A stretch of DNA of 64,000 nt from Janthinobacterium tructae (GTDB lineage: Bacteria; Pseudomonadota; Gammaproteobacteria; Burkholderiales; Burkholderiaceae_D). The position numbers were made by a program, and so were the translations under genes. The stretch covers positions 3,968,001 through 4,032,000 of the forward strand of contig NZ_CP041185.1 in NCBI RefSeq assembly GCF_006517255.1, written 5' to 3'. The number at the start of each line of letters is the position of its first letter. Within the stretch, counting starts at the first letter, position 1. The notes below the pieces were generated by a model, which ran no database searches, had not been told where the DNA came from, and saw only the letters and a program-made list of their open reading frames with translations. Shown here in pieces: positions 19,390-23,924 of the stretch.

Positions 19390-19447
19390 TATCTCGACAT
19401 TAAGATAAAAGTCCAGTGTGGACGCGTACTATCTTGATGTCAAGATA
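19390..19447. promoter_or_regulatory. Two MarR-type operator palindromes upstream of the EamA transporter
   Basis: TATCTTGATGTCAAGATA (19430-19447) is a perfect inverted repeat with 8-base arms. TATCTCGACATTAAGATA (19390-19407) is a diverged copy exactly 40 bases away, about four helical turns. Sites of this type are usual for MarR-family repressors. No MarR gene lies in this window, so the regulator would act from elsewhere. Confidence 0.75.
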
Positions 19448-19479
19448 AATTGACAGGCGCGCCGCTGCCTGGCGGGCGT

Positions 19480-19503
19480 AAAAAAACCCGGCATGGCCGG
19501 GCT
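19480..19503 (-). terminator. Rho-independent terminator of the zinc-ribbon operon
   Basis: Read on the minus strand, AGCCCGGC pairs across a short loop with GCCGGG and is followed by seven T. It lies 45 bases after the stop of the last gene of the cluster. Confidence 0.85.
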
Positions 19504-19547
19504 TCTGGAATGATGCAAGGCGGCACGCTGCGCCACCCGCCGGATGC

Positions 19548-20633
19548 TTAATCGCGCACGCGCTGCAGCACCGTGATCGGCATGCCGCCGATGCTGAGCG
19601 TAGCCGTGTTGTTGCTATTGCTCAGGCTGATTTGCATGGCCATGCCGCCTGCGCCTTCCGGCGCGAACGTCACGACATTGCCCTCGGTGGTAAAGGTGCC
19701 TTTGCTTGCCTTGGCATTCTCGATGACGCTGTCACGCGTAAACTCCAGCACACCGCCCATCGGTGCCTTCCACTTGCCCACCAGCGGGTGGCCGCCAAAG
19801 CTGAACAGGCCTTTCAGTTTGTCCAGCATGCCCGGTCCCTGGGTGGCCGACGCATTGCCCAAGGCCCCTGCCATGGCCATGCTCATGGCGGCCTGCTGCA
19901 GTTGCGCGCGGTCGGTGACTTGCCATTGCTTGTCGACCAGCGCCAGCGGCAATTCCACTTCCAGGTCACCGTGCGGCAAGCGTTGCAGGATCAGTGCCCG
20001 GTCCGCCGATTTGGCCAGCCACGTCGCCTCATCGGTCAAGGCCAGCTTGGCAGTGGCCATTGCTACCTGCTGACCGCCTATCTCGCGCACCTGCTCGTAG
20101 CCGCTGACCTTGGCCACTTTCACGCCCTTGGCCACGCACAGCTTGTCGCCGCGCAAGGCTGCCTTGCCCGGGGCGGCCAGCGCGTAGACAAATTGCGATT
20201 GCGCAAGCCAGCCACCGCTGCTCTGCTCGACGGGAGCGGCGTACAGCCCGCTACGCACGAGGATATCGAGCCATTGCCGCGTGGAACTGTCGTACGAGGC
20301 CACGCGGATTTCTTCCTTCTGGTACGGCAAGTTGGTCAAGCAGAGCAACTTGTCGCGCGCCGCCTCGTCGGCCGTCAGGTGGGCATCGATGGCGCGGCTG
20401 AAACTGCTGGCCGAGGCCGCTTCGGGCGCCAGCAGCCACGCCAGGGCGCCGCCAGCCACGATGACTACCGCCAGCACGCCGCCGGCAATCATGACGTGGC
20501 GCCGCTGTACGCCGGCCCCGGCCGGACTGGCCGGCGCCGGCGCTGCCGCGGCAGGCAAGGTATTGCCGCATTCATCGCAAAAGCGCGCCCCCGGGGCATA
20601 GGCCGTGCCGCATTTGGTGCAGAAGTGAGCCAT
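19548..20633 (-). CDS. Zinc-ribbon membrane protein of unknown function (operon gene 4)
   Basis: A 361-residue protein. Residues 1-25 are a zinc ribbon (FCTKCG, 11 residues, FCDECG), followed by an Ala/Pro linker and one membrane segment (VMIAGGVLAVVIVAGGALAWLL, about 47-68). A roughly 290-residue domain follows that should lie outside the cytoplasm. Its C-terminus contains VGKWKAPMGGVLEFTRDSVI and TFTTEGNVVTFAPEG, resembling a small beta-barrel lipocalin-like or DUF-type module I cannot name. Start ATG 20633 has AAGG upstream and is eight bases from the preceding gene. The upstream extension of the frame overlaps that gene and lacks a ribosome site. Confidence 0.75.
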   Translation of the reverse strand: MAHFCTKCGTAYAPGARFCDECGNTLPAAAAPAPASPAGAGVQRRHVMIAGGVLAVVIVAGGALAWLLAPEAASASSFSRAIDAHLTADEAARDKLLCLTNLPYQKEEIRVASYDSSTRQWLDILVRSGLYAAPVEQSSGGWLAQSQFVYALAAPGKAALRGDKLCVAKGVKVAKVSGYEQVREIGGQQVAMATAKLALTDEATWLAKSADRALILQRLPHGDLEVELPLALVDKQWQVTDRAQLQQAAMSMAMAGALGNASATQGPGMLDKLKGLFSFGGHPLVGKWKAPMGGVLEFTRDSVIENAKASKGTFTTEGNVVTFAPEGAGGMAMQISLSNSNNTATLSIGGMPITVLQRVRD

Positions 20634-20641
20634 GGTGTGCC

Positions 20642-21754
20642 TTACTTGAGTTTGTGCGCGCATTCGCCGCAGAACACGTCATCGGACGCGACCGGTGCCT
20701 TGCAGCTCGGGCATTGCAGGCTGTCTGCCGGCGCAGCGGCTGGAGCGGCTGGTGCCGTCGCCTGCTCGGCGAGGGCGCGCGCACGTTCACGCGCTTCCTC
20801 GGCCTTTTTCTTGACCACCGCCAGGCCGTCGTTCAGGCTCGCTTCCGAGGCGCTGAAATCGACATTGCGCGTGGCGTTCAGGTAAATGATGCACACGCCC
20901 TTGGTGAAGATCAGGCCAGGCACAACGGCTGCGGCCGCCATCAGCAAGCCGCCGCCCAGGCCGGCAGCGATGATATAGCCGGAACCGCTGCCGCCACCCA
21001 GGCCCGAGGCCAGCGCGTACATATTCATCTGGCCGCCCAGACCCAGGATGCCGGCCGACATGCCCGTGGTCAGCGACACGCCCGTGCCCAGCACACCAAA
21101 GATCAGCAGCGCGGTAAACGACGTGATCAGGAACAGCAGCACTTCCAGCAGGATCACCGACACCAGCTTGGTGCGCACGATCAGGTTCAGGCGGGCAATG
21201 ATCTGGAACACGCTGGCGCCCGACCAGGCGGCAGGGCCGGCCAGTGGCAGCATCACGTAGAACAGCGCAAACACCAGCACGCCCAGCACGATGGCCGACA
21301 AGGGGAAGACCACCGCGTACAGCACGGGGCCCAGCACGGGGATTTTGCAGACGAACAAGATGATGGCGATGACGATCATGGCCGCCAGCACGATCAAAAA
21401 TTCCAGGAAGACGACCGCGATCAGGCGGTGGCTGGTGTACAGCGAGACGAGCACGGCATCAACCAGGCTCAAGCCAGGCTGGCCCTGCGCATCGCGCATC
21501 AGCAGGATGCCCACGGCGTTGGAACCGTAGAACATCACCAGAAAGGCCATCAAGCCGCCCAGGAAGGCCAGCACGACACTGCTCATGCTGCCGGCGAGCA
21601 TCGTCAGCACGCCGCCGACGAGCACCGCGCCGATGAAGGTCAGGGCCAGCAGGGCAATCGCGCGGAAATTCTTGATGGCATCGGTCGCTTCGATCAGCGA
21701 TCCCACGGCGGAGGAAAAGGGAAACGGTTTATGTGCTTCTGTGGAAATGGTCAT
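20642..21754 (-). CDS. Multi-pass membrane protein with C-terminal zinc ribbon (operon gene 3)
   Basis: A 370-residue protein with six to eight hydrophobic segments between about residues 30 and 285, including a Gly-rich loop (ALASGLGGGSGSGYIIAAGLG). A cytoplasmic region follows with a short coiled coil (VVKKKAEEARERARALAEQ) and a C-terminal zinc ribbon (CPSCKAPVASDDVFCGECAHKLK has CxxC-N9-CxxC). The ribbon is at the opposite end from its neighbours. I do not recognise the membrane domain. It is flanked by genes 2 and 4 on the same strand, 65 and 8 bases away. Confidence 0.75.
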   Translation of the reverse strand: MTISTEAHKPFPFSSAVGSLIEATDAIKNFRAIALLALTFIGAVLVGGVLTMLAGSMSSVVLAFLGGLMAFLVMFYGSNAVGILLMRDAQGQPGLSLVDAVLVSLYTSHRLIAVVFLEFLIVLAAMIVIAIILFVCKIPVLGPVLYAVVFPLSAIVLGVLVFALFYVMLPLAGPAAWSGASVFQIIARLNLIVRTKLVSVILLEVLLFLITSFTALLIFGVLGTGVSLTTGMSAGILGLGGQMNMYALASGLGGGSGSGYIIAAGLGGGLLMAAAAVVPGLIFTKGVCIIYLNATRNVDFSASEASLNDGLAVVKKKAEEARERARALAEQATAPAAPAAAPADSLQCPSCKAPVASDDVFCGECAHKLK

Positions 21755-21819
21755 GTCTAGCCTGGAAGGGGGAAATCGGGATGGGACGGCCTGCCTGGCC
21801 GCCCCGTGGTATTGCAGTG

Positions 21820-22542
21820 TCAGTACGCCAGCGCCAGTTGCAGCTCGCTCGCAGGCGCCTGGCGCTGGACGATCTGCAGTTTGACGTCCTGGCCGCCGAC
21901 ACGCTTGCTATTCAGGTACAAGGCGGTACGCACGGGATAAATGCCCTGCGGCACGCCTTCGGGCATGGGAATCGAGAAACCGCCCTTGTAGGCGCCGCTG
22001 CCGTTATTGCTGCTGACCACCTTGCGCACAGTTTTGATCAGGTCGCCATTTGGCTTGTACAGGCTCAATTCTTCTTCCACCAGCGGGTTCGGATCGCGCG
22101 TGCCGGCTGCCACTTCGATATACGAATTGGTCTGCGCCTTCTGGCCCGGACGTACGGAGGATGGCGTAAAGGCCGTCTCATACTTCACCAGCGTCGACTG
22201 CTCGGGCAGCTTGCCCTTGTTGGCCACCTTATAGTCGGCCTGCACCTGCTGCGCCGTCTTGACTTGCTGGCTTTGATAATTCAAAGCCACGCAGGCGAGT
22301 GCGCCCAGGCTGGCGCCCAGGGCCGCGCCGCGCACGGTATTCGTGCCACCGCCCAGCAAGCCGCCCACGACAGCGCCGATGCCGGCCAGCATGGCCGTAT
22401 TGCATTCACCGCTGGCCGCTTCCGTGCCTGCGGTGGTGGTGCCGGTGGCGCCAGGGCCACCCGGCGCGGCGCAACCGGCCAGCATCGAGGACACAACCAG
22501 CAGCGCTACCATGGGCTTGGCAATTTGTTTCAAGTTTTTCAC
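21820..22542 (-). CDS. Predicted lipoprotein (operon gene 2)
   Basis: A 240-residue precursor. I chose GTG 22542 because GGAG lies seven bases upstream; an ATG at 22563 exists without a ribosome site. The signal peptide ends in a lipobox, SSMLAGC, giving an N-terminal acylated Cys. Next comes a glycine-zipper-like stretch (AMLAGIGAVVGGLLGGGTN, then GAALGASLGALA), common in membrane-interacting lipoproteins. The C-terminal half (RPGQKAQTNSYIEVAAGTRD, then MPEGVPQGIYPVRTALYLNS) looks like a beta-sandwich. It would place an envelope component in the zinc-ribbon operon. Confidence 0.75.
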   Translation of the reverse strand: MKNLKQIAKPMVALLVVSSMLAGCAAPGGPGATGTTTAGTEAASGECNTAMLAGIGAVVGGLLGGGTNTVRGAALGASLGALACVALNYQSQQVKTAQQVQADYKVANKGKLPEQSTLVKYETAFTPSSVRPGQKAQTNSYIEVAAGTRDPNPLVEEELSLYKPNGDLIKTVRKVVSSNNGSGAYKGGFSIPMPEGVPQGIYPVRTALYLNSKRVGGQDVKLQIVQRQAPASELQLALAY

Positions 22543-22589
22543 GTTATTCTCCGGGAGGAACAAAATAGGGGGAAGGCAAGCAGCGCGGC

Positions 22590-23636
22590 TTACTCGATCT
22601 GGATTTGCGACAGCGCCTTGTCTTGCGCGTCTTTCGCCTTGCGCTTGATGTCGAGCGCGTAGCGGTTGCCCTTGTCCATGCGCAACACGGCATTCGCGTT
22701 GGCAATGGCACAGTCGTATTTGCGCTGGCTCATGCAGTGGCTCGCTTCCGACAGGCTCTCCGTGATCACGCTTTCCAGGCCGTCAGCCTTGTTGGCGGGG
22801 GCGGCTGGCGGTGCGGCCTTGACGGGCTTGGCGGGCTTTTCCACGACCGGGGCAGGTGCAGGGGCTGGCGCTGGTGCAGGCTCGGGCGCGGGCGCAGGGG
22901 CGGCAACCGGTGCTGGCGCCGGGGCGGGCACCGCTGGCGTCACGGCAGGCTCGGCCGCCGTGGCGCCATCGAGCGCAGGGTCGCTGATGGCCAGCGGCTT
23001 CTCGGCAGCAGGCGCAGGTTCCGGCGGCACAGGTGGCACGGGTGCCGGCTGCGACGCTGGCGGCTTGCTTGACAGGAAATAATACCCGCCTGCACCGCCC
23101 AGCAGCACTACCGCTGCGACGACTGCGGCAATCAGCTTGAGGGGAAGGCCACGCGGTCGCTTGTCGTCTGGCGCTTTGGGCACGCTGGCGGGTGCGGCAG
23201 CAAGTTCTGGTGCGGGCGCGTGGACAGGTGCGGGTGCGGGTGCGGGTGCGGGTGCGGGTGCGGGTGCGGGTGCGGCTTCAGGCTGGCGCTTTTCCAGCAC
23301 GGGCGGCGGCGCCGGTGCCGCGACAGGTTCCGCCACTGGCGCCGGGGCAGGTTCCGCCACTGGCGCCGGGGCAGGTTCAGGCATGGGCTCGATGGCGGGC
23401 GTAATGACCGGTTCCGGCAGAGGCGGCGGCGCCGTTGCGGCAACGGGCGCTACGGCAAAGCTGAACGCGCATTTGGGGCAGAATCTGGCATCGGCCTTGC
23501 AATCATGGCCGCACTGGCCACAGGATTTGCCTGGCACCTGGGCGGCAACAATCGTGGCAACGGCAAACGTCGTGCCGCACGAAGAACAGAATTTTGCACC
23601 CGGTTTATTCTCGGCCTGGCAGGAAAGGCATTTCAA
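22590..23636 (-). CDS. Double zinc-ribbon membrane protein with Pro-Ala linkers (operon gene 1)
   Basis: A 348-residue protein. Two zinc ribbons lie at residues 3-20 (CLSCQAENKPGAKFCSSC) and 39-56 (CGQCGHDCKADARFCPKC). They are followed by a long Pro/Ala/Glu linker containing a hexanucleotide repeat tract, one membrane segment (LIAAVVAAVVLLGGAGGYYFL, about 167-188) and a second Pro/Ala linker. The C-terminal region (about 290-348, ASHCMSQRKYDCAIANANAVL) looks like one TPR-like hairpin. The only start in this frame is TTG 23636, with GAGA six bases upstream; an in-frame stop lies seven codons before it. It opens a four-gene operon ending at the terminator at 19480. Confidence 0.75.
   Translation of the reverse strand: MKCLSCQAENKPGAKFCSSCGTTFAVATIVAAQVPGKSCGQCGHDCKADARFCPKCAFSFAVAPVAATAPPPLPEPVITPAIEPMPEPAPAPVAEPAPAPVAEPVAAPAPPPVLEKRQPEAAPAPAPAPAPAPAPAPVHAPAPELAAAPASVPKAPDDKRPRGLPLKLIAAVVAAVVLLGGAGGYYFLSSKPPASQPAPVPPVPPEPAPAAEKPLAISDPALDGATAAEPAVTPAVPAPAPAPVAAPAPAPEPAPAPAPAPAPVVEKPAKPVKAAPPAAPANKADGLESVITESLSEASHCMSQRKYDCAIANANAVLRMDKGNRYALDIKRKAKDAQDKALSQIQIE
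23227..23274 (-). repeat. Eight perfect copies of a hexanucleotide inside the zinc-ribbon gene
   Basis: The unit GGTGCG (plus strand) is repeated eight times and encodes alternating Pro-Ala on the minus strand. Slippage would add or remove Pro-Ala pairs without breaking the frame, so linker length probably varies between strains. Confidence 0.9.
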
Positions 23637-23852
23637 TTGGCATCTCTTTTCATATCAACGCTGACGCCGTACGCCCGCATCGCTTGCCAGAATGGCAGCT
23701 TTGTTGCCGTACGGCTAAATATGCAACGAGTATATTTTCAAACAGCAAGTTGCCACAAGAGAAAATTGCCTTTTGCTCTATTCAAATTTTAAATATTGGT
23801 AAAAATCCTGCCGCCAAGGAGATCTCGCGCACCACCTTGGTGCACGGAAAGC

Positions 23853-23889
23853 AAAAAACCCGGCAACGCAGTGTGCGTTGCCGGGTTTT
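23853..23889 (-). terminator. Rho-independent terminator after ygiQ
   Basis: A perfect 16-bp stem (23855-23870 with 23874-23889) and 3-base loop, followed on the minus strand by six T. It ends 35 bases after the ygiQ stop codon. The rest of the 288-bp gap to the zinc-ribbon gene is AT-rich and should hold that operon's promoter; I see no clear -35/-10 pair. Confidence 0.88.
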
Positions 23890-23924
23890 CAGGCGATGCC
23901 CGAAGGCCGAAGGCCTAAGGCAGC

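Follow-up and report, generated by a model that had tools for sequence, protein, structure and literature searches.

Four consecutive genes of Janthinobacterium tructae, encoding three zinc-ribbon membrane proteins and one lipoprotein, raise the question of whether they form a functional block and, if so, what that block might do. They lie within a window of 64,000 nucleotides (the whole stretch of DNA analysed, positions 3,968,001 to 4,032,000 of contig NZ_CP041185.1, assembly GCF_006517255.1), and are named here g1 to g4 in order of transcription, together the cassette (Table 1). Comparison among genomes of the genus and of the order Burkholderiales confirmed that the cassette is a genuine block and not a product of chance. 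As to its function, we tentatively propose, as a reading that is quite possible rather than probable, that this accessory cassette specifies one envelope-spanning assembly, an inner-to-outer-membrane scaffold that would sense or relieve membrane disturbance.

A genuine block beside ygiQ

The conclusion that the genes are not together by chance follows from the joint presence of g3 and g4, their fixed distance from ygiQ, the existence of empty sites, and a recurring gene order. Of 40 genomes of the genus, the 21 that have g3 are also the 21 that have g4, and the distance to ygiQ is about 2.1 kb in every case. The empty-site check covered 14 of the 19 genomes lacking g3 (G201 has no ygiQ match; G221, G222, G228 and G237 were left out); in 11 of these 14, ygiQ reaches the next conserved genes within 0.8 kb, and none of g1 to g4 was found in the ygiQ flanks of any of them. 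Genus-wide presence was counted for g3 and g4, while g1 was found in 6/6 and g2 in 15/15 of the genus loci used for the comparison of substitution rates below.

Across the order, g3 was found in 11 of 200 genomes. Gene order was assessed in at least 23 g3 loci, retained from 41 listed after 18 had been dropped (L036 and L037, cut by contig ends, and L038-L053, with a ribbon-only match); L082-L087 were left out of the inspection, and L026 and L030 were judged from one gene-content comparison. The order g1-g2-g3-g4 occurs in 9 of the 23 loci among the matches listed, three of them outside the genus (L018, L019 and L027; in the last, g1 and g4 were recognized by profile match, tblastn at 1e-15 giving only g2 and g3), and at L057 the four genes stand together in permuted order. 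The initial annotation had proposed looking for the same order in other Burkholderiales, and it is indeed seen in some. At one further locus (L021:2850-8447, a Gallionella metagenome-assembled genome), a g3-g4 pair precedes genes of ankyrin-repeat, LemA-plus-zinc-ribbon and AsmA-family type, the latter two being separated by an open reading frame (ORF) on the opposite strand. In one Janthinobacterium genome (G207:C1:1205741-1207951), g3 and g4 each match as two overlapping pieces, which suggests frameshifts or assembly errors near the C-termini of both.

The four genes are separated by gaps of 47, 65 and 8 bases, and both this layout and the terminator at its end, as first described, are borne out by the ORF calls and the hairpin 3′ of g4. 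None of 200 shuffled sequences folded equally well as this hairpin, which is not among the sites listed by a consensus-based terminator scan. Taken together, the ygiQ terminator, the candidate promoter and the terminator after g4 indicate that the genes are probably transcribed as their own unit, apart from ygiQ, so that the shared transcription suggested earlier is plausible. Two near-palindromic repeats that start with TATCTT and end with AGATA (19390-19447) separate the cassette terminator from the EamA gene and are perhaps operators of the latter.

All four cassette genes are under constraint, with a ratio of nonsynonymous to synonymous divergence (dN/dS, here the ratio of median dN to median dS between the window and genus loci, by a simple counting method) below 0.5 throughout. 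With six loci each, the values were 0.02 for ygiQ, 0.08 for EamA and 0.27 for g1; with 15 loci each, of which L013/L075, L015/L081 and L017/L078 give matching values and are not independent, they were 0.07 for g2, 0.10 for g3 and 0.30 for g4. Within g4, the ratio was 0.30 for the ribbon, 0.19 for the middle domain, 0.45 for the linker (residues 241-279) and 0.46 for the C-terminal barrel; the six loci of the genus with values for both showed 61-80% identity to the window in the barrel and 99-100% in ygiQ. Change is thus fastest in the barrel and its preceding linker, as would suit a region facing a variable partner or ligand.

Table 1. Features of the cassette and its flanks (positions within the window)
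Feature	Position	Strand	Basis
g1	22590-23636	minus	ORF, 348 aa, TTG start
g1 double zinc ribbon, residues 2-56	23469-23633	minus	Pfam DZR 4.7e-9
g1 transmembrane helix, residues 168-190	23067-23135	minus	sequence
g1 C-terminal TPR-like domain, residues 284-348	22593-22787	minus	profile search
g2	21820-22542	minus	ORF, 240 aa, GTG start
g3	20642-21754	minus	ORF, 370 aa, ATG start
g3 C-terminal zinc ribbon (Cys348, 351, 362, 365)	20660-20713	minus	Cys conservation, Pfam
g4	19548-20633	minus	ORF, 361 aa, ATG start
g4 N-terminal zinc ribbon (Cys5, 8, 19, 22)	20568-20621	minus	Cys conservation
g4 C-terminal small beta-barrel, residues 280-361	19551-19796	minus	
ygiQ (upstream gene) intrinsic terminator	23848-23898	minus	RNA fold -31.7 kcal/mol, z -7.1
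Candidate sigma-70-like promoter	23729-23756	minus	match to consensus only, 9/12 positions
Cassette intrinsic terminator, 3′ of g4	19478-19512	minus	RNA fold -16.3 kcal/mol, z -4.3

Architecture of the four proteins

The multi-pass protein g3 comprises about six membrane helices, a charged helix and a C-terminal zinc ribbon, each of whose four cysteines is kept in 25 of 26 aligned sequences. Its structure model (mean predicted local distance difference test score, pLDDT, 87.7; predicted template modelling score, pTM, 0.77) aligns best with PNS1, CTL1 and CysZ, and the modelled fold appears to resemble the unusual CTL/PNS1-CysZ fold, a similarity that is new here. Pfam and NCBIfam searches (E ≤ 1) gave no match to the CTL/SLC44 or CysZ families, and PDB sequences gave none either; compared with SLC44/CTL-PNS1 and CysZ proteins, g3 carries the charged helix and the ribbon as additions. 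Two lysine or arginine residues precede its first helix, one lies between helices (in 136-140), and 10 fall in the ribbon-bearing C-terminal 75 residues.

In g4, an N-terminal zinc ribbon is followed by one transmembrane (TM) helix, a mixed alpha/beta domain and the small barrel (model mean pLDDT 79.7, pTM 0.52). Each ribbon cysteine is kept in 18 of 19 aligned sequences, and Cys98 and Cys166 of the outer part in all 19. By model comparison, the barrel is similar to many kinds of small barrel, lipid-binding ones included.

The remaining ribbon protein, g1, consists of a double zinc ribbon, a 111-aa linker rich in proline and alanine (fraction 0.61), one TM helix, a 93-aa arm of the same kind (0.67) and a 65-aa TPR-like end. 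Basic residues on the N-terminal side of the TM helix suggest that the N-terminus is in the cytoplasm. The tail profile was built from seven sequences of the present set, which match it by construction; it also finds the held-out g1 of five Janthinobacterium loci (L014-L017 and L020) at 3e-36 or better. The initial annotation's three CxxC-CxxC ribbon proteins were upheld: g1 (Zn_Ribbon_1 4.6e-9 in two stretches, besides DZR) and g4 (Zn_Ribbon_1 2.3e-6) score above the Pfam cut-offs, and g3 (Zn_ribbon_3 1.7e-5) reaches 24.5 bits, below the 27-bit cut-off, with conserved cysteines. The accompanying idea of metal or redox gating was not sustained, the conserved cysteines being its sole support.

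The fourth protein, g2, has no zinc ribbon in Pfam and is a predicted lipoprotein with lipid-bearing Cys24 and alanine at position +2, a glycine zipper between Cys47 and Cys84, and a C-terminal part after the zipper that appears to be beta-rich. Of 137 homologues found, 120 were listed; a lipobox is present in 110 of the latter, in no case with aspartate at +2, and the cysteine pair flanking the zipper in 112 (motif search). The residue after the lipid-bearing cysteine signals the destination membrane of a lipoprotein (the +2 rule), and a lipobox without aspartate at +2 therefore points to the outer membrane as the location of g2. Glycine-zipper lipoproteins of the YiaD, PdsO and TagQ type share this combination of lipoprotein and zipper; however, g2 scores far below their cut-offs, has no OmpA domain match, and possesses its own conserved C-terminal region and cysteine pair.

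Beyond the ribbon models of g1 and g4, no curated Pfam cut-off was reached, and none in NCBIfam was reached by any cassette protein, so that matches to unrelated characterised families, which would have spoken against a common system, were not found. PADLOC models of anti-phage defence yielded 0 families for the four proteins at E ≤ 0.01, and no published description of the cassette was found in the searches made of an open-licence library.

A second g2-type gene in an FtsZl1 row

The same genome encodes a second g2-type lipoprotein at 5.096 Mb, 36% identical to g2 over 237 aligned columns. It lies in a row of genes (L066:1051-10331, equal to G000:C1:5087050-5096330) that encodes 506-aa and 150-aa proteins with hydrophobic segments, a 1232-aa protein with a Tubulin_2 domain (5.2e-61) and, at its C-terminus, a GYF_2 domain (4.3e-12), and lastly a 404-aa protein in which a ribbon motif and a TM helix are combined with a TPR-like tail. 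This g2 paralogue, directly preceded by the g1-like 404-aa protein, closes the predicted operon, which is the other new observation made here. According to passages of PMC2875224, this tubulin family was named FtsZl1 by Makarova and Koonin, who proposed a role in membrane remodelling, and a vWA-domain gene often lies near it; in Pfam, no vWA-domain model matched the four cassette proteins, the surroundings of the cassette not having been searched for it.

FtsZl1 (Tubulin_2, PF13809) rows, as represented in this genome, thus have a ribbon-TM-TPR-like protein and a g2 homologue in common with the cassette. In contrast, the cassette has no tubulin-like gene (the genome's one Tubulin_2 match, at 5.09 Mb, is outside the window), and the row at L066 has no g3 or g4 match. 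Of five Tubulin_2 loci inspected, three (L066, L113 and L114) have the g1-like/g2-like pair after Tubulin_2 and two (L111 and L112) do not. Tubulin_2 occurs in 38 of 40 genus genomes and in only 2 of 200 order genomes, compared with 11 of 200 for g3, so that the cassette is evidently independent of Tubulin_2.

Weighing the possible functions

In the proposed assembly, g3 and g4 would form an inner-membrane core with their ribbons on the cytoplasmic side, g1 would extend its Pro/Ala-rich arm with the TPR-like tip through the periplasm, and g2 would be the outer-membrane partner or anchor, working via its glycine zipper. Ribbons in the cytoplasm, four in all (two in g1, one each in g3 and g4), may dock the subunits to one another or to a cytoplasmic membrane-shaping partner. 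Sensing or relief of membrane disturbance would be akin to events in Bacillus subtilis, where, according to parts of PMC8581546, deletion of ydjG or ydjH abolishes membrane recruitment of PspA and YdjI. As described in sections of PMC11237479, YdjG combines two ribbons with an NTF2-like domain and a TM segment, a band-7 protein carries a C-terminal ribbon, and the pspA-ydjGHI operon, like the cassette, encodes more than one zinc-ribbon membrane protein. The likeness proposed is one of gene make-up and working, and the cassette differs in having a lipoprotein and a CTL/CysZ-like protein; it lacks PspA and is not a member of that system. For the cassette, we infer contacts, zinc binding, sensing, function and phenotype alike.

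Several observations weigh against such an assembly. PspA, SPFH and TPM models were unmatched by the four proteins (Pfam, E ≤ 1), and the unit is bounded by terminators. Of the 40 genus genomes, 19 lack a g3 of the cassette type; among the 23 listed g3 loci, g4 is missing in 10, and g4 together with a g1-like gene in 5, some of which contig ends may hide. Of six order genomes with a g3-g4 pair, three (G027, G035, G156) have no g2 match and a fourth (G117) has the zipper piece of g2 only, while G132 and G170 carry g2 with no g1, g3 or g4 nearby (L064, L065). Five of 14 g1-like genes (L028, L031, L033-L035) have no tail-profile match at E ≤ 0.1, and the two g1-type proteins of this genome are only weakly alike, in layout and a tail match (BLAST E 4.2; tail profile E 0.027, or 9e-5 in a smaller set). 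The single envelope-spanning complex of the initial annotation is plausible and would fit the topology, but several genomes have only part of the gene set; in those without g2, the g3-g4 pair would need to work with another anchor or none. The annotation's statement that no named system has this combination was borne out for the precise set of genes by the libraries and open-licence papers searched, but multi-ribbon membrane-protein operons are known from B. subtilis (in the passages of PMC11237479 concerned) and a g2 paralogue adjoins the tubulin-like row.

The partial gene sets could also mean that these are functionally separate ribbon proteins joined only through shared expression, since g3-g4 pairs, solo g3 and solo g2 genes occur; joint presence at one genus site, a gene order held in three loci outside the genus, and the further ribbon membrane proteins that adjoin other g3 genes make this distinctly unlikely. 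Somewhat less unlikely, though still doubtful, is a unit for small-molecule or lipid transport, with g3 as a CysZ/CTL-type permease, the g4 barrel and g2 handling a periplasmic substrate, and the ribbons serving only assembly or regulation, as the best alignments of the g3 model and the lipid-binding barrels among the relatives of the g4 barrel would allow. The lipoprotein identity, the adjoining g1-like protein and the prevalence of Tubulin_2 in the genus would fit a tubulin-free offshoot of the FtsZl1 membrane-remodelling system, with the ribbon-TM-TPR-like protein and lipoprotein as a common module; we consider this improbable, given the rarity of Tubulin_2 in the order, the two inspected loci without the pair, and the row lacking g3 and g4.

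The ribbon, TM helix and outer domain of g4 recall TcaA, a single-pass protein with an N-terminal ribbon, and YvbJ, which we take to be of the same type. At L042:9995-12470, and likewise in comparable Staphylococcus loci, a TcaA-like gene comes immediately after one for a multi-pass protein whose N-terminus bears a zinc ribbon. Cell-wall sensing with g4 as a Gram-negative counterpart of TcaA would accord with this layout and with the succession of multi-pass and single-pass ribbon proteins in five such loci (L040, L042, L043, L045 and L051, several near-identical; TcaA domains were looked for and found in L042 only). However, hhalign aligns g4 with TcaA only over residues 2-87 (ribbon and TM helix) and not over the outer domains, the TcaA outer domains (PF22813, PF22820) were unmatched by g4 at E ≤ 1 in Pfam, and the Staphylococcus multi-pass partners have the ribbon alone (27 columns) in common with g3, leaving this explanation very improbable.

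The tentatively preferred envelope-spanning assembly has a bolder extension, which we regard as unlikely: Betaproteobacteria would possess a trans-envelope machine for membrane maintenance that has a bacterial protein of CTL/SLC44-type fold at its centre, is joined by cytoplasmic zinc ribbons, and shares its periplasm-crossing arm and its lipoprotein with the FtsZl1 system. If this were true, cytoplasmic filaments and a ribbon complex could use the same kind of outer-membrane anchor. More generally, membrane-anchored zinc ribbons are frequent in bacterial genomes and rarely understood, and the presence or absence of the cassette among close relatives at the same site makes its role directly testable. 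Furthermore, the g3 family would supply bacterial examples of the puzzling CTL/PNS1 fold, as modelled, together with their gene neighbourhoods, and the lipoprotein common to both rows offers a way into the FtsZl1 tubulin-like genes, which have been little studied.

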